Assembly (NCBI GenBank): GCA_902580225.1
Contig: CACHJU010000013.1
Coordinates: 1-54,974, forward strand
Direction of reading: 5' to 3'
Source of the DNA: an uncultured Verrucomicrobiota bacterium
GTDB lineage: Bacteria; Verrucomicrobiota; Verrucomicrobiia; Opitutales; Seribacteraceae
DNA: 54,974 bases
In this document: positions 21,867 through 29,131 of the stretch, piece after piece
Position numbering within the stretch: the first letter of the stretch is position 1
Layout of the letters: each line of letters starts with the position of its first letter
Translations under genes and position numbers: made by a program
Notes under the pieces: generated by a model
Told to the model about the DNA's origin: nothing
What the model saw: only the letters and a program-made list of their open reading frames with translations
The model's database searches: none

Positions 21867-22718
21867 TTATTCGTTAAGTCCGAATTCAACAATAAGCTGA
21901 TCAACGAATTTTTTATGGTTTAATTCAGTGCAATTTTTTTTCCAATCCATTAGATAGGTTACAAAGCTCCTTTTTTTATCTGATTTATTCACATTGATAA
22001 AAGCACAGGAGCCCCAAAGGCCGGGATTTGTCTCAAAAAAAGGAAGCAGTTGGGAGGCAATCCGAACATTTCGATCTCTTTGGGTCGGTTTATTAGAGAG
22101 GAAATTTTTTTCCCGGGAATACCACTCGGCAAGAGTTTGATTTTGCGGCCAAGGAAATTTCTCCAATCGATTTTGAGCATATTTGGCAAATTCTTTACCA
22201 TATTCGGTTCGTTCTGGGAAAAGCGGCTTGGTTTTCCATTCTGTTGTCATTCTTCTAAGAGCGAAGAGGGAAGCGGTCTCACAGAGTGTTTCCTCGAACC
22301 ATAAGTTCGAACGATTCCCTTTTTTAAAACCGCATATAATATGTCCAAATTCATGGGCAAATTGAAAGGCATATTGCGACCAAAAAGTTTTTTCGGAATT
22401 TAATCTTACCAGATATTCGCCAAATTCTCCCCTACGATACAAAACAATTGGACCAGTTCGTGATCTTTCAACCCGAATCGGGCTGATTCTTTTCTGTAAT
22501 ACATGAGGCCAGATTTGTCTAACGGTAGAATTTAGAACTTTTTCGATATCTTTTGCGGAGGCACCACTCCATATATTTGGCTTAACCATAATGGCTGGAA
22601 AATTTTTCTTATCCCCGTAGGAGTATATGGTTATCGAGAACATAAAAATAATGAGATTTATTCTTATGAAACCAAAAGGAGGCAGGGTCTTTTTTGAGAA
22701 TACTTTAGAGTTCACCAT
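21867..22718 (-). CDS. Putative secreted HExxH metallopeptidase
   Basis: A 283-residue protein with an N-terminal hydrophobic segment (about 15-34) that should direct export. The zinc motif is H122-E-F-G-H126, followed by W-F-E-E-T-L-C-E at 140-147, where E143 or E147 could be the third ligand, as in gluzincins. I do not recognise the family and no close named homologue comes to mind. Activity is inferred from the motif only. It is downstream of the 1244-residue repeat protein on the same strand, 70 nt away, with a weak hairpin between them. Confidence 0.6.
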   Translation of the reverse strand: MVNSKVFSKKTLPPFGFIRINLIIFMFSITIYSYGDKKNFPAIMVKPNIWSGASAKDIEKVLNSTVRQIWPHVLQKRISPIRVERSRTGPIVLYRRGEFGEYLVRLNSEKTFWSQYAFQFAHEFGHIICGFKKGNRSNLWFEETLCETASLFALRRMTTEWKTKPLFPERTEYGKEFAKYAQNRLEKFPWPQNQTLAEWYSREKNFLSNKPTQRDRNVRIASQLLPFFETNPGLWGSCAFINVNKSDKKRSFVTYLMDWKKNCTELNHKKFVDQLIVEFGLNE

Positions 22719-22788: not shown

Positions 22789-25700
22789 CTAAGGGGCTGG
22801 AGGTGGAGCCAAATACCTGGATTCACTGTAGTCGTAGTAAATGGGTTGCCCGTTAAAGTTTTTGAGAAAATAAAGCCAAGTTGAACTTTCAAAACGATAC
22901 AGGTAGGGCCAGACTCCATCTTCAGTCCATTGCCATCCAAATTCTTCAGTCCATAACCAGACACCTTTACTTCCATCTTCAATAACATAGCTCCATCCGA
23001 TTTCCTGATGGTAGATCCAGTCATTATCAAAGGGAAGATAAGAACCGAACCAATCGGAAGATTTCCAGCCTGCTTCCAAATCGAAATTATTTTCATCCCA
23101 TGATTGAAAATTTTGTGTCCTGAATTTTTTAATGGAACTGAAAGATTCCCCGCTTTGATTGGTAGCAAATGCCCTGTAGAAATAGCTCCTGTTAGGTTCC
23201 AGATTATCTAGAATGACCGAAAAGAACGGCTCATCTGTTCGCTCGGCTATCAATCTAGTTTCATTTATAAAATTCATAGATTCAGATACTATAAAACCGA
23301 GTTCAAAAATCGGGGAATCACCGGTGGCGAGTATCTCAGCAGAAAGAATAAAGATATCATCTTCAATAATTTCTGCACTCTCAGCTTGAACGATCGGTTG
23401 TTGAGGAATTAGTAAAACATTTTCTTTGTCTAGGTATTTCTTATTATCACCGGCAATTTCGGGATTTTCAAAATAGAGTTTATCTATTCCCAAAGTATCG
23501 GTTGAATACGCAGTTTCCCTCCAATCGAGGGCGTCTATAATAATGACATTATGAGCATCTCTCCAAAAGGCTTCAAAATGGCCGGCAAAAACAGAACCGT
23601 CCATATCAACAATAAGATTTGGAATTTCCGAATTCTCCTCGTTTTCGATGGATAAATTCCAGACTAATTCTGCCTGATATTCAGCAATGGACTTATAGAA
23701 AAAGGGATCACCCGCAATCGGATAGAAATTTGGATCATATTCCTGTGGGTCGCTGAATGGATCAAATCCGGTTGGGAGGTAGAACTGGAAGAAAATATTG
23801 TCATAACCTTTGGCCAACTCAGCCAATTCCATAGGATCAGATAGGTTGATTTGATCAATAACCGTAAAGTCAAAGGGCGGAATTGTTGGACTGGGTGGAT
23901 AGGTGGGCTCGCCGAGGATTTGAGGATGTTGGTTATAAAGGTTTTCTATGCCGAGTGTATCGTTGGAAAATGTGGTTTCGTGCCAGTTGGGGTCATCTAT
24001 AGAGTTAACATTGTGAGCATCTCTCCAAAAGGCTTCAAAATGACCAGCAAAAACAGAACCGTCCATATCAACAATAAGGTTCGGAATTTCCGAATCCTTC
24101 TCGTTTTCGATGGATATAATCCAGATTAACTCGGGTTGATCGGTAGGATAATCATATGGCACTGCATCCTGATCGAATTCAGTGAAGGGTTCGTAAAATA
24201 GAGGGTCTCCTGCAATTGGATAGAAATTTGGATCATATTCCTGTGGATTGTTGAATGGATCGAATCCGGATGGGAGGTAGGACTGGAAGAAAATATTGTC
24301 ATAATCTTTGGCTAATTCAGCCAGTTCTTTAGGATCAGAGAGGTTAATTTGATCAATAACAGTAAAATCGAAGGGCGGAATTATTGAGGTTGGAGGATAG
24401 GTGGGTTCCCCCAATATTTCGGGATGGTTTGCATACAGGGACTCAACACCAATCTCCGAAGCAGAATATTCAACCTCAAACCAATCAGGATCGATATCAA
24501 CATTTACCTGGTGAGCATCTCTCCAATAGTCGCCAAAATGGCCGATGTAAACATTTCCATTCCTATCCACAATAAAGTTGGTTTCATCTGGATTGTCATT
24601 TTCAATCGATAAAACCCAAATAATATTCTGAAATTCGGAAGGGGCGGTAAGATCAAAAGGCATTCCATTAGATTCTTCCATTCCTTGATCAAAGAAAGAA
24701 TTTTCAGGATACATAACTTGGTCAAAAGGGATACCTGTTTGGTAGCCGGTGTAATACTGGAAAAATATTTTGCTGTGATTCTTGGCTAATTCAGCAAGCT
24801 CACTTGGATTATTCAGATCAATAGTTTTGAAAATTGTGAAATCAAAGGGAAGTACATTGTGATCTGTATCAAGTAGAAAGCCGGGAGAATCAGCATACCC
24901 CGACGGATTTGGATCAATGGGGTTGGTGTCGAGTAGAAAGCCGGGAGAATCAGCATAACCTGAAGGATTTGGATCAGTGTATCCACCGTCAGGGGACTGG
25001 TATCCATTATCGGGTGTCTGGTATCCATTATCGGGTGTCTGGTAACCAGTGCCGGGGGACTGGTATCCACTGTCAGGCGTCTGGTATCCACTGCTGACCG
25101 GAGAACCGAAGGGCACACCGCCGATCTGGTTTAAAGTGTTGAAAGAAGGATCACCGCTGAGATCAAAAAGCGAGGGGTAGCTGGTAAGAATACCGTCATC
25201 CAAATTAGTGTATTGATATTGATCATCCAAGTTTCCGGTAATCCCGTCCGGACCGGGTCCAATAGAAACCACTGGTTCCATATAGAGTTGAGGGGTAGCC
25301 ATGATCGGATCATGAGTCTCGGTGAAGGCATAAAATCCGGGAGTGTAGGATTGTGAGGGTGGTGCCCCTCCCTGATAAGCAAATCCATCAATTGTTGGTG
25401 AGTCCAAGTTGTAAACTGCCAGAGGGGGAGCGTTGGTGGGCATGCCGGGAGAAACTTGTCCGCGAATAGTTGGGTTTACCAAGTAAGTTTCAACTTCGGT
25501 CATAGAGGGAAAATTACTGACCAGACTAATAGAATCATTCTCCGGGGAAAATTCATAAGGATCGTCACTAGTGCCTGGGGTTCCGTCATTTCCGTAGGAA
25601 GGACCTGCACCCATGAGGGGGTCGTAATAAGGAATAACGGGTTCAAGGGATAGGGTTCCGTTGTGATCGTGGAAGGCATAAAAATAGCCAAAAGGCAGAT

Positions 25701-26523
25701 CCGATTGTCCGGTCAAATAAAGAAGTTGTGCTGTACTCAGTTCGTAGACTTGATGGGGCGGATCGCTGACCGGAGAACCGAAGGGCACACCGCCGATCTG
25801 ATTTAAAGTGTTGAAAGAAGGATCACCGCTGAGATCAAAAAGCGAGGGGTAGCTGGTAAGAATACCGTCATCCAAATTAGTGTATTGATATTGATCATCC
25901 AAGTTTCCGGTAATCCCGTCCGGACCGGGTCCAATAGAAACCACTGGTTCCATATAGAGTTGAGGGGTAGCCATGATCGGATCATGAGTCTCGGTGAAGG
26001 CATAAAATCCGGGAGTGTAGGATTGTGAAGGTGGTGCCCCTCCCTGATAAGCAAATCCGGAAATCGTAGTTGAATCCAGGTTGTAAACTGCCAAAGGGGG
26101 AATATCCACAATATTCAGGTTAGCTTGCATGGTATTCAAGTGGGCAGTACAAAAATAGATCAAACTACCCGAAAAACCATTGGGAATGGTTACAATGAGC
26201 GATGTTCCAAGTCCATTAAGTGGGGTACCGGAAACAAGGGAGGAATTATTAACAGTATCTTCGCCCACCATAAATGGGTGTCCGGATGAAACTCCATCAT
26301 CGATGAACTGGTAAGTTTGGCCTTTGATCAGATTATAAGTAGTTATGTCAATGGTACCGCCTGTGGAATCTGTAAAGGTGTAAAAGGGAGCAGAAGGATT
26401 GCCGTTACTAACATTTATAACGGTTGATGCTTGGGTCTTTACACTTCCGAGTACGCAAAAAAAGACCGTCCAATAAAAAAACGATTTAATGGATAAGGAA
26501 ATCTTATTTAACTCTTTAGGCAT
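22789..26523 (-). CDS. Large secreted repeat protein with cupredoxin and Trp-rich C-terminus
   Basis: A 1244-residue exported protein. In order: signal peptide (1-32); cupredoxin-like domain (33-139) with possible copper ligands H82, C125, H128 and M132; three copies of an unassigned module of about 110 residues (144-253, 258-366, 368-477), each with a G-x-D-G-x-x-G-x-x-D-D loop; five heptads of G-Y-Q-x-P-x-x type (478-512); two copies of D-P-N-P-S-G-Y-A-D-S-P-G-F-L-L-D-T (517-553); three copies of a second module of about 150 residues (558-709, 716-873, 882-1024) with a G-H-F-x-x-x-W-R-D-A-H motif; an FnIII-like segment (1040-1136); and a C-terminal domain with ten Trp (1150-1238). The gene follows the 378-residue partner by 44 nt on the same strand. 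Function is unknown; cell-surface structural or adhesive roles are plausible. Confidence 0.8.
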   Translation of the reverse strand: MPKELNKISLSIKSFFYWTVFFCVLGSVKTQASTVINVSNGNPSAPFYTFTDSTGGTIDITTYNLIKGQTYQFIDDGVSSGHPFMVGEDTVNNSSLVSGTPLNGLGTSLIVTIPNGFSGSLIYFCTAHLNTMQANLNIVDIPPLAVYNLDSTTISGFAYQGGAPPSQSYTPGFYAFTETHDPIMATPQLYMEPVVSIGPGPDGITGNLDDQYQYTNLDDGILTSYPSLFDLSGDPSFNTLNQIGGVPFGSPVSDPPHQVYELSTAQLLYLTGQSDLPFGYFYAFHDHNGTLSLEPVIPYYDPLMGAGPSYGNDGTPGTSDDPYEFSPENDSISLVSNFPSMTEVETYLVNPTIRGQVSPGMPTNAPPLAVYNLDSPTIDGFAYQGGAPPSQSYTPGFYAFTETHDPIMATPQLYMEPVVSIGPGPDGITGNLDDQYQYTNLDDGILTSYPSLFDLSGDPSFNTLNQIGGVPFGSPVSSGYQTPDSGYQSPGTGYQTPDNGYQTPDNGYQSPDGGYTDPNPSGYADSPGFLLDTNPIDPNPSGYADSPGFLLDTDHNVLPFDFTIFKTIDLNNPSELAELAKNHSKIFFQYYTGYQTGIPFDQVMYPENSFFDQGMEESNGMPFDLTAPSEFQNIIWVLSIENDNPDETNFIVDRNGNVYIGHFGDYWRDAHQVNVDIDPDWFEVEYSASEIGVESLYANHPEILGEPTYPPTSIIPPFDFTVIDQINLSDPKELAELAKDYDNIFFQSYLPSGFDPFNNPQEYDPNFYPIAGDPLFYEPFTEFDQDAVPYDYPTDQPELIWIISIENEKDSEIPNLIVDMDGSVFAGHFEAFWRDAHNVNSIDDPNWHETTFSNDTLGIENLYNQHPQILGEPTYPPSPTIPPFDFTVIDQINLSDPMELAELAKGYDNIFFQFYLPTGFDPFSDPQEYDPNFYPIAGDPFFYKSIAEYQAELVWNLSIENEENSEIPNLIVDMDGSVFAGHFEAFWRDAHNVIIIDALDWRETAYSTDTLGIDKLYFENPEIAGDNKKYLDKENVLLIPQQPIVQAESAEIIEDDIFILSAEILATGDSPIFELGFIVSESMNFINETRLIAERTDEPFFSVILDNLEPNRSYFYRAFATNQSGESFSSIKKFRTQNFQSWDENNFDLEAGWKSSDWFGSYLPFDNDWIYHQEIGWSYVIEDGSKGVWLWTEEFGWQWTEDGVWPYLYRFESSTWLYFLKNFNGQPIYYDYSESRYLAPPPAP
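23452..24852 (-). repeat. Three tandem coding modules (second module family)
   Basis: Residues 558-709, 716-873 and 882-1024 of the large secreted protein align. Shared elements are P-P-F-D-F-T-V-I-D-Q-I-N-L-S-D-P, E-L-A-E-L-A-K, then V-D-M-D-G-S-V-F-A-G-H-F and F-W-R-D-A-H-N-V. Copies 2 and 3 are closest, with long identical DNA stretches 462 nt apart (for example starting at about 23552 and 24014). Copy 1 is more diverged and keeps V-D-R-N-G-N-V-Y-I-G-H-F. Confidence 0.85.
24865..24975 (-). repeat. Two 20-residue coding repeats (PSGYADSPGFLLDT)
   Basis: Residues 517-533 and 537-553 of the large secreted protein are the same 17-residue sequence, 20 residues apart. They sit between the heptads and the second module family and may be a flexible spacer. 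Confidence 0.85.
24988..25092 (-). repeat. Five 21-bp coding heptads (GYQ[ST]P)
   Basis: Residues 478-512 of the large secreted protein are five heptads: SGYQTPD, SGYQSPG, TGYQTPD, NGYQTPD, NGYQSPD. The 21-bp DNA period keeps the frame. A Pro/Gly/Tyr-rich linker or elastic segment is the simplest reading. Units this short can vary in copy number between strains. Confidence 0.9.
25093..25386 (-). repeat. 294-bp direct repeat, copy 2 (third module)
   Basis: Encodes residues 380-477 of the large secreted protein. It matches 25765-26058 at all but two of 294 bases by my reading. The offset of 672 nt (224 codons) keeps the frame. Confidence 0.95.
25765..26058 (-). repeat. 294-bp direct repeat, copy 1 (first module)
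   Basis: Encodes residues 156-253 of the large secreted protein and is nearly identical to 25093-25386. The module between them is clearly related in protein pattern but strongly diverged in DNA, which points to a recent duplication or gene conversion of the flanking copies. Confidence 0.95.
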
Positions 26524-26567
26524 GGTCTCCGAAAGCGAATTCTTGAGAAAAACTCAAGTATGCCAAT

Positions 26568-27704
26568 TTATGGAGTGTGGGTACCGACTGGCAAGATTGC
26601 GGTGGGTCTGGATGCGAACCAACTGTCGACGGAAGTCGGACTGGTGAAACCAGCTGTGACAGCGGGGTCAGCCGGGTCGGTCCAGCTTTGACTAAATGGG
26701 CCAGAATAGTAATCGTCATCCGCGTTTCCAGGAATGCCATCTGGGCCATCACCACGAATGAGAGCCCTAATTTGCCACTGGGGTCCGAATTCGAGGACAT
26801 ACACATAGGCAGGAAAGTCAGTTGAACTCCGACCTGTGCTTGTCCCGGCTAAGGCCAAATAGTTAGGATGATCGATTTGGTATACATTATAGGAGGGAGA
26901 TTGACTAACAGGAGGTTCGATAGGAGGAGGAGGGTTTGAATCTGAAGACCAATCAGCAGGATTAGTTGGTGGAAACATTCCCGTTTCCGGCATTAAGTGG
27001 CCAGGTCCGTGAAAACCACCAGGGACATTACCGGCAGTGGCCACAACACGAATTCGGGTATCAGGAAAAGAGCCAACGGGCACTTGGCCATTATCTGTGA
27101 ACCAGATGAAGGATTTTTGCATACCAGGTATAATATTAGGCCCGTGATCTGGGCCGGAAAGAGATGTGCATTTTTCCCAATGCTGACCTCCGTCTATACT
27201 AAAGAAGGCTTCCACATAGACCATACTTCCTGGAGAGGCTAAATTATCGGATAAATTATAAGTAACATTGACCGCATCACCGTTGATCGAAGTGATCACA
27301 TTAGAGACCATTGGACCGTTGGGATCATTTCCTTGAGCAGGTGGAGTTGCAAGAGTGCCACCTAATTCTTGCCAATATACATTAGTAATATCATCAAGAG
27401 GGGAAAAACCCATGGGAACGGCAACTAATGATGTGTATGAGGATGTTCCGTAAGATACCGTTGAGCCAGCTGGATATGGAGATAATGAATCCCACATAGG
27501 AGCATAGGTATCTGGCTGCAAGGTTATCGGTTGGATGGGAACAGTCGGTTCCAAGGTTATCGGTTGGATGGGAACAGTCGGTTCCAATGTTATCGGTTGG
27601 ATTGTGGGATAGGGCTCCAATACAATGCCAGGATCTTGTGCTTGGGCAGTAGTATAAAAATTTGCAACTGCAAAAAAAACAATGAAAAGAAATTTATTTT
27701 TCAT
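26568..27704 (-). CDS. Secreted protein with chitin-binding-like segment and shared module
   Basis: A 378-residue exported protein, first gene of a pair with the 1244-residue protein. In order: signal peptide (1-22, ending Q-A-Q); three Pro-rich units around P-I-Q-P-I-T-L (30-63); a segment at 66-114 resembling CBM5/12 chitin-binding domains (A-P-M-W-D, Y-P-A-G-S-T-V-S-Y, Y-W-Q-E-L); a beta-sandwich-like part (132-225) with D-G-G-Q-H-W and P-G-M-Q-K-S-F-I-W; and a C-terminal module (272-374) of the type repeated in its neighbour, with G-D-G-P-D-G-I-P-G-N-A-D-D. Carbohydrate binding is an inference from pattern. Function otherwise unknown. Confidence 0.75.
   Translation of the reverse strand: MKNKFLFIVFFAVANFYTTAQAQDPGIVLEPYPTIQPITLEPTVPIQPITLEPTVPIQPITLQPDTYAPMWDSLSPYPAGSTVSYGTSSYTSLVAVPMGFSPLDDITNVYWQELGGTLATPPAQGNDPNGPMVSNVITSINGDAVNVTYNLSDNLASPGSMVYVEAFFSIDGGQHWEKCTSLSGPDHGPNIIPGMQKSFIWFTDNGQVPVGSFPDTRIRVVATAGNVPGGFHGPGHLMPETGMFPPTNPADWSSDSNPPPPIEPPVSQSPSYNVYQIDHPNYLALAGTSTGRSSTDFPAYVYVLEFGPQWQIRALIRGDGPDGIPGNADDDYYSGPFSQSWTDPADPAVTAGFTSPTSVDSWFASRPTAILPVGTHTP
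27521..27619 (-). repeat. Three 33-bp coding repeats (11-residue PT.PIQPITL. units)
   Basis: Units at 27521-27553, 27554-27586 and 27587-27619 encode P-T-V-P-I-Q-P-I-T-L type units. The first two differ by very few bases; the third is more diverged. They form a Pro-rich stalk just after the signal peptide. Confidence 0.9.
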
Positions 27705-27859: not shown

Positions 27860-29131
27860 ATGAACTATAATATAAATCCCCTTATAAATCTTTTCCTTTT
27901 CAGCTTTTTATTTGTAAAAGCAAAAGCGGAAACTCTAGAGATCTGGATTAGTTCTTTTCAGGATCAAGTTTACTATGAGCAGATGGGGGAAATGTATGCG
28001 AAAAAGAAAAACAAAGACTTTACCATTAATGTAAAAGCCTATGGATTTCGCGAAATGCCAGACAAATTGGGAGTGGCAGTTCGTACAGGTCAGGGAATTC
28101 CCGATTTGGTGCAGTTGGATGAAACCTTTTTTGGGGTCTTTTTAAATGAAAATTCGCCTTTTGTAGATTTGACCAAAAGAGTAAAAAAATCCGGTTTGTT
28201 TCAGGATTTGCACCCAAGACGATTGGAAGTATTTACTTACAAGGGAAAAATTATGGGGGTTCCTCAATCTCTAAGCGCTATGGTGCTCTATTACCGAAAG
28301 GATTTATTTGAAGAATTTGACATTGACCCAAAAAGCTTAAAGACATGGGCGGATGTGGCAGAAGTAGGAGAGGAATTGCAATCCAAACATGGACAGAGAT
28401 TTATGGCGTTGGACGGTACACTTTTTGATGTACTATTAAGGCAGAAGGGAACCGATTTATTCGATGCCAAGGGTAAATTCCTCCCCGATGAAAAAAAAGC
28501 CTTATCTGTTCTCGAGGAATTTGCCGCCATGGCAGCAAATGAGGTGGCGGTCATGCCGGATCGTGGTTCTATTTTTGACCCGGTCTTTTTTAGTGGTGAT
28601 TTGGAAACTGGAGAAGTCCTTTGTGTTCCCGGTGCCGACTGGTATGGCCTTGATTTATTTCAACAGTTTGCTCCTGGGATGGAGGGTTTGTGGGGGCTTT
28701 TACCTTTACCAACCTGGCGGACTGAAGAGGGTGAACTGGGTCCGCGTACTGCAACTTTTGCTGGGCAGGGCTTGATGATTTGCAAAGGTAGTCCCAAAAA
28801 GAAACAGGCTTGGGAATTTATTGAGTTTGTGATGAAGGACAAGGAGGCCAATGCGGAGCGTTTTTTACAGGGAAATAGTTTTCCTGCTTACCGGCCATCT
28901 TGGAAAGATGAGAGATTGCTTGGTAAGCACGAATATTTTGAGCAGTCTATTGGAAAACTCCTAATTGAATTAGAGGATGAAATTCCACCTGTGATCGTAG
29001 ATCCGAGGAGACCGCAGGCTATATTTCTGATGCAGGAAAATTATTTTGGATCGGTAATGTTTGGAGCCATTTCTCCCCAGGATGCACTTAAACAATACAA
29101 GGATGCGATGCAAAACAGCGGTCCTCGATAA
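27860..29131 (+). CDS. ABC sugar transporter, substrate-binding protein
   Basis: A 423-residue periplasmic binding protein of the CUT1 (family 1 extracellular) type. A signal peptide ends K-A-K-A before E-T-L-E-I-W. Typical features are the early L-E-I-W-I-S, I-P-D-L-V-Q-L-D-E around residue 80, and Y-Y-R-K-D-L-F-E-E-F around 145-155. It is followed by two permease genes on the same strand, making a standard importer operon. The ligand cannot be read; oligosaccharides or glycerol-phosphate-like compounds are typical. Confidence 0.9.
   Translation: MNYNINPLINLFLFSFLFVKAKAETLEIWISSFQDQVYYEQMGEMYAKKKNKDFTINVKAYGFREMPDKLGVAVRTGQGIPDLVQLDETFFGVFLNENSPFVDLTKRVKKSGLFQDLHPRRLEVFTYKGKIMGVPQSLSAMVLYYRKDLFEEFDIDPKSLKTWADVAEVGEELQSKHGQRFMALDGTLFDVLLRQKGTDLFDAKGKFLPDEKKALSVLEEFAAMAANEVAVMPDRGSIFDPVFFSGDLETGEVLCVPGADWYGLDLFQQFAPGMEGLWGLLPLPTWRTEEGELGPRTATFAGQGLMICKGSPKKKQAWEFIEFVMKDKEANAERFLQGNSFPAYRPSWKDERLLGKHEYFEQSIGKLLIELEDEIPPVIVDPRRPQAIFLMQENYFGSVMFGAISPQDALKQYKDAMQNSGPR

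Follow-up and report, generated by a model that had tools for sequence, protein, structure and literature searches.

Rickettsia palindromic elements are short palindromic repeats that are inserted in frame into conserved genes. PERCAL, a loop of 11 residues, was defined on loops inserted into heme peroxidase domains of the bacterial animal type; calcium binding was measured for a PERCAL-consensus peptide (33-79 uM) and for a peroxidase domain, the loop of the pseudopilin 3g20 coordinates calcium, and a looser form of the motif includes four structures whose loop binds nothing (PMC3396595). In this study, a stretch of DNA of 54,974 nt (hereafter the window), which is one entire contig (CACHJU010000013.1, assembly GCA_902580225.1) of a 66.6% complete genome of an uncultured Verrucomicrobiota bacterium of the order Opitutales, was analysed with respect to a protein module of about 85 residues that carries such loops. 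The module recurs in one, and probably in both, of the products of two adjacent minus-strand genes, which are separated by 44 nt and likely form a co-transcribed operon: (i) P0001, a secreted mosaic protein of 1244 amino acids (22789..26523), and (ii) its upstream operon partner P0002, a secreted protein of 378 amino acids (26568..27704), both with an apparent signal peptide recognised by eye. The module was previously unnamed, and no title or abstract describing it was found in the searches made of the open-licence literature.

Four segments predicted by the first-pass annotation of the window were recovered at the predicted positions of both proteins, all encoded on the minus strand: copy 1 (P0001 residues 144-253, 25765..26094), copy 2 (residues 258-366, 25426..25752), copy 3 (residues 368-477, 25093..25422) and copy 4 (P0002 residues 272-374, 26583..26891). 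For every segment pair, at most one shuffle in 1000 reached the local-alignment score. Copies 1 and 3 agree at 319 of 330 nt (300 nt at 98% in a separate repeat comparison) and result from a recent duplication; being nearly identical, they reduce the four copies to three independent sequences. A profile of the four copies, searched against congener genomes, found relatives in two of them (G001 and G005) at the same gene position, and the same locus in further congeners holds loop-free versions of the module. A single protein of G007 contains six of these, the last being truncated by the contig end. The window copies are the loop-bearing form of this module.

Membership of the family was examined with the PERCAL loops masked, using a 29-row profile of loop-free relatives and 1000 shuffles. 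Copy 1 scored 12.9 bits and copy 2 25.5 bits, with no shuffle as high in either case. In a separate comparison, an earlier profile of 13 loop-free copies gave 10.9 and 21.7 bits, respectively (0/1000 shuffles each). When compared with the loop-free family by hhalign, the copy-1 type reached a probability of 86% (E 4.8e-6) and the copy-2 type 18% (E 0.0014), and the scores of the copy-1, copy-2 and copy-4 types each exceeded all 60 column shuffles, that of copy 4 barely. Profiles that include the copies themselves matched copy 1 at E 5.5e-19, copy 2 at 5.5e-16 and copy 4 at 7.7e-16. Copies 1-3 are members of the module family, the first two through the loop-masked match and the third through its near-identity to copy 1. 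Copy 4 is a probable member because of its loop, its overall layout, the gene next to it and its matches to profiles in which it is itself included. The idea of one module in four copies therefore stands for copies 1-3 and, the loop-masked test of copy 4 being marginal, becomes a probability for the fourth; likewise, the module, said to occur in both genes of the apparent operon, is present in one of them and probably in the second.

Each of the four segments contains one exact match to the strict PERCAL consensus G-x-D-G-x-x-[GN]-[TN]-x-D-D, all on the minus strand: GPDGITGNLDD in copy 1 (25894..25926) and copy 3 (25222..25254), GNDGTPGTSDD in copy 2 (25561..25593) and GPDGIPGNADD in copy 4 (26715..26747). 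A six-frame scan of the window gave no fifth PERCAL match, and the pattern G-x-D-G-x-x-G-x-x-D-D, which occurs four times in the window, once per segment, as previously described, never arose in 2000 shuffles of each protein. The earlier view of a calcium-type loop in a nameless module was correct on both counts, but the loop itself already has a name, PERCAL (PMC3396595). The best sequence match in the PDB to a blended module loop was the loop of 3g20 (E 0.036). The pseudopilin GspG, to which this structure belongs, is a pilin-type protein. Loops without the module were seen in proteins of the genus identified by eye as flagellins and beta-helix proteins; the loop is therefore neither the core of the module nor diagnostic of it, and it is a separate, portable element. 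Judging by their motif, these particular loops should bind calcium.

The weak matches of the first profile were inspected individually, and several were set aside for this reason and not counted as modules. Those in G008 (L016), G019 (L015 and L021), contig C14 of G001 (L027), contig C1 of G016 (L014) and contig C68 of G021 (L020) are PERCAL-type loops only, and these loop-only matches sit in proteins that by eye are flagellin, beta-helix or FGE-like. One further match (L022, contig C2 of G016) lies outside the loop, shows no visible module and was likewise not counted; that in contig C42 of G021 (L013) falls within a module-bearing protein and was retained. Of 41 distinct stretches, all but one (L135, see below) were treated as modules, and partial or near-duplicate copies were omitted from alignments A4 and A6.

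The distribution of the module was determined with a 19-row profile (match at E <= 0.01). Within the genus, 17 of 27 genomes gave a match. A draw of 387 genomes from the phylum yielded two, namely the window's own and G358, whose weak match (L135; E 0.0045, half of the profile covered) was taken as chance and not used as a module. Relatives named through a flagellin-like protein (see below) are metagenome-assembled genomes (MAGs) of Verrucomicrobia, Opitutia and Opitutales and other assemblies such as TMED44, ARS1007 and AH-709-J17; from their names, we take these and like records to be marine. In the genomes searched, the module hardly occurs outside a single genus of marine Opitutales.

An AlphaFold2 model of a loop-free copy, that of the flagellin-like protein, was obtained with a predicted local distance difference test score (pLDDT) of 93.1 and a predicted template-modelling score (pTM) of 0.79. 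It shows a compact beta-alpha-beta4-alpha fold (strand, helix, four strands, helix), and the core contains a nearly invariant Trp. Window copy 2 was modelled at pLDDT 78.8, with the PERCAL motif (residues 55-65) between strands E34-42 and E67-69, where the block pLDDT is only 55-74; in the pseudopilin structure, antiparallel beta strands flank the loop. Foldseek searches of the PDB with both models returned nothing at E <= 0.001 (best E 2.7 and 0.66), nor did a search of viral models with the copy-2 model. No Pfam family was shared by more than 2 of 32 module copies and no NCBIfam or PHROGs family by more than 1 of 30, in agreement with the annotation, which could assign the module to no named domain. 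Neither a phage search with the 1244-residue protein nor a plasmid search with the six-module protein of G007 gave a match.

Beyond the operon, the module was found inside three unrelated proteins and beside a fourth type of domain. These hosts are: (i) a protein of about 1090-1115 amino acids with a flagellin N-terminal domain (Pfam Flagellin_N, 6.5e-7), which from its ends we take to be of the FlgL type, (ii) a sodium:alanine symporter (Na_Ala_symp, 7.2e-128), in whose N-terminal part the module occupies an apparently extracytoplasmic position, (iii) an FGE-sulfatase-like protein that by eye begins like a lipoprotein and whose Pfam domain is split by the module (FGE-sulfatase, 2.9e-46), and (iv) a protein in which the module stands beside RCC1 repeats (Pfam). 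The module had been regarded as a possible building block of a surface system; this may be said of it in the present operon, but it is not confined to it.

The same sites are found with and without the module. Among 21 symporters compared (of 22 loci, that of G016 being left out), 5 species have 89-94 residues between the motifs FWxIPG and PLxVxWLL, where the module is present, and 16 have 3 residues and no module; the five symporter modules matched the profile at E-values from 1.5e-15 (a copy included in the profile) to 3.4e-4. A single clade of the five module-bearing symporters on the host tree was rejected (approximately unbiased test, p-AU 0.0007), and the symporter modules group together in the module tree (Shimodaira-Hasegawa-like approximate likelihood-ratio test, SH-aLRT 77). 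This pattern fits one origin followed by repeated precise loss, or transfer. Of ten named records of the flagellin-like protein, five have a clear module, one a weak module within a longer insert, three a different insert and one (L206) almost no residues at the site. Elsewhere in L206 (residues about 200-330; whole-sequence module E 7.6e-6), two halves of the module are weakly matched, the tail half (221-251) preceding the head half (268-327). For the FGE-like protein (20 loci, 13 compared), the site is spanned by 11 records, five with the module, five with another insert of 101-117 residues and one with 16 residues; the last (41% identity) may, from its sequence, be a paralogue. The inserts of other kinds are those of L203-L205 in the flagellin-like protein and of L146, L147, L150, L152 and L155 in the FGE-like protein, and since the same sites receive different inserts, the loops look like general insertion slots. 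The source genome of the window has its own FGE-like protein with a module (G000:C18:5756-7417; L141, L163), which is interrupted by an insertion of about 150 residues, so that three domains are nested one within another; its halves matched the profile at 5.7e-4 and 1.2e-4 separately and at 7.1e-9 when joined.

Within the module, dN/dS was about 0.21-0.22 in the two pairs that were not saturated (symporter pair: dN 0.276, dS 1.282; FGE-like pair: dN 0.074, dS 0.357), dS being saturated in the other three host pairs. The inserted modules are under purifying selection in these two measurable pairs. In all five pairs the dN of the module exceeded that of the host, clearly in four and slightly in the remaining one; the module is therefore constrained, but less so than its hosts.

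We consider the module to be an envelope-facing binding or spacer domain that has spread between genes by insertion and is stabilised by calcium in this operon, with a probability of roughly 0.6. According to this reading, a domain of about 85 residues, apparently always extracytoplasmic, would have spread among unrelated genes of the genus by in-frame domain insertion, presumably through ordinary recombination, and by local tandem duplication. In the window, the 11-residue PERCAL loop would occupy the position of a short turn of the loop-free relatives, and each loop-bearing copy would be made more rigid by binding a single calcium ion. The operon would then yield a pair of secreted, surface-associated mosaic proteins that serve as adhesins or in particle binding. 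The module may act in them as a calcium-stabilised binding or spacer unit, and its copy number, and hence protein length, would shift by recombination. A surface location and an adhesive or binding role of P0001 and P0002 are most likely, as far as their sequences indicate.

Some of the results weigh against this reading. When its loop was masked, copy 4 scored 3.4 bits against the 29-row profile, and 3 of 1000 shuffles were as high; its three closest relatives gave 3/1000, 32/1000 (a failure) and, in one case, no score, and the loop-bearing relatives in G001, G005 and G021 as a whole gave 0/1000 to 32/1000, one being without a score. The earlier 13-copy profile gave copy 4 a score of 4.4 bits (2/1000). 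In hhalign, the copy-4 type had a probability of 1.0% and a score of 14.0, compared with at most 13.5 in the 60 column shuffles. Module copies of each host type cluster in the module tree (SH-aLRT 77, 72 and 99; two groups weak), and among 41 stretches the closest two copies from separate genes of the same genome share 38% identity over 73 residues (an alignment of three residues and a pair of overlapping loci from the same gene being set aside); insertion into the hosts is therefore old and not ongoing. Many of the genomes are incomplete MAGs, so that absences of the module are uncertain, and L206, with its weak part-matches elsewhere, may hold degenerate copies and is not a clean negative. 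Finally, small domains can escape Foldseek.

A doubtful rival explanation sees in the module a lectin or carbohydrate-binding domain by which secreted proteins, the flagellum and a transporter are directed to algal polysaccharide. It would suit the Opitutales setting (the ocean origin being taken from record names), the flagellin-like protein has a sub-threshold CBM_5_12 match elsewhere in its sequence (5.2e-5, 23.6 bits against a cut-off of 26.2), and the Trp of the core is nearly invariant; however, a single conserved Trp is weak evidence, and the module itself has neither a consistent match to a carbohydrate-binding module (CBM) or lectin nor a significant match in the PDB.

It is unlikely that the module is a portable, folded, envelope-facing tag placed in tolerant loops, by which unrelated machines bind the same partner, with repeated insertion and precise loss and with rival inserts competing for the slots. 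If so, a structural protein of the flagellum, a symporter for nutrients, a lipoprotein of FGE-like type and giant adhesins would share a partner such as a surface polymer or scaffold, and the occurrence of the module in flagellar, transporter and surface proteins does suggest a shared extracellular partner in marine bacteria. Comparisons of distant families are the usual basis for inferring that a folded domain was inserted in frame into a conserved protein; in this case, module-bearing, module-free and otherwise filled versions of the same sites coexist in a single genus, which makes it possible to date and test the step.

The module might also be selfish coding DNA that enters genes in frame and has no function in its hosts, like the Rickettsia palindromic elements or PARCELs, which we regard as quite improbable. 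Inserts in three unrelated conserved proteins, orthologues lacking the module at the site and its patchy distribution on the symporter tree would all be expected of such an element, but the copies cluster by host type, no pair from different genes of one genome exceeds the 38% identity given above, the symporter junctions (inspected by eye, not computed) show no evident dyad or target duplication, and selection is purifying in the two pairs. Least credible is a similarity made up of the PERCAL loop and convergent secreted-protein sequence without a common domain, which could account for the loop-only flagellin- and beta-helix-like proteins and for the marginal or non-significant masked scores of copy 4, for which it retains some force, and its closest relatives, but not for masked copies 1 and 2, which matched the loop-free profile beyond all shuffles and were supported by hhalign, or for a loop-free core that folds at pLDDT 93.

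The locus around the operon is variable. On the other side of P0002 lies a plus-strand gene (27860-29131) for what by eye is an ATP-binding cassette (ABC) solute-binding protein, present in 21 of the 27 genomes of the genus (E <= 1e-50), and the content facing it was compared by eye in the 20 other genomes. The same two-gene layout, with homologues of P0002 adjoining this neighbour, is found in G001 and G005. Cupredoxin-like starts together with the module occur in G002, G003, G007 and G012, and such starts in G020 and G022, where the sequence ends before any module. First genes of Fn3-like plus FGE-like type are present in G004, G008, G013, G017 and G019, pentapeptide-repeat starts in G021 (reaching a cut-off module) and G039, and a two-module gene in G010; in G006, neither operon gene lies within the 1.2 kb present beside the solute-binding gene, and the contigs of G009, G018 and G023 are too short for a judgement. 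Of 21 genomes, 19 have a contig end within 5 kb of this gene on the module side, compared with 2 on the opposite side. Repeat-rich, variable genes break assemblies in this manner, and the breaks are indirect evidence of a variable locus. A weak IrrE/M78-type peptidase-like gene (21867-22718, minus strand; Pfam E 0.0027, under the cut-off) is located on the far side of P0001, and a similar gene adjoins this locus in G006 and G010 (by eye).

Several further regions of P0001, whose Pfam scan gave a sole, sub-threshold match (residues 1098-1136), could be distinguished on the minus strand. Residues 33-140 (26104..26427) form a cupredoxin-like N-terminal domain, recognised by eye from a His...Cys-x2-His-x3-Met pattern and without a Pfam match, which recurs in large proteins of congeners. 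The set of His, Cys-x2-His-x2/3-Met is kept in most congener proteins compared by eye and lost in L119; as a sequence pattern, it suggests that large surface proteins bind a copper ion. The C-terminal tail (residues 1145-1240, 22804..23091) is a Trp-rich domain, likewise without a Pfam match, that recurs in many copies per genome across the genus. Among 28 matches in the fetched loci, 23 lie within 20 amino acids of the stop, and from this placement a sorting or anchoring function is possible. Between these domains are three repeats of about 155-165 residues (PFDFTxIDxIxL...WRDAH; about 23404-24867), with similar stretches visible in congener loci L041 and L107, and 21-nt tandem repeats (24961-25092) encoding GYQTPD-type heptapeptides, a type abundant in another large protein of the same genome (contig C66).

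Compared with known systems, the loops of the window agree with PERCAL in the exact consensus of all four copies and in being a short loop set into a host domain; PERCAL is known in peroxidase domains and a pseudopilin (PMC3396595), whereas here it lies within an unrelated module. The GspG pseudopilin of Type II secretion (PDB 3g20) has a similar loop, SPGPDGVPNTEDD, which coordinates calcium according to the same report (PMC3396595), but its observed match to the module is confined to the loop. PARCELs are like the module in that a repeated coding sequence is dispersed among open reading frames, many of them membrane-targeted, in variable copy number, but they are amphipathic repeats of 25 residues with dyad symmetry in their DNA and are found in disparate bacteria and eukaryotic microbes. 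The module, in contrast, is a folded domain of about 85 residues with hardly any occurrence beyond a single genus, and it differs from Rickettsia palindromic elements in that its inserts are older, folded and, in the measured pairs, under purifying selection.

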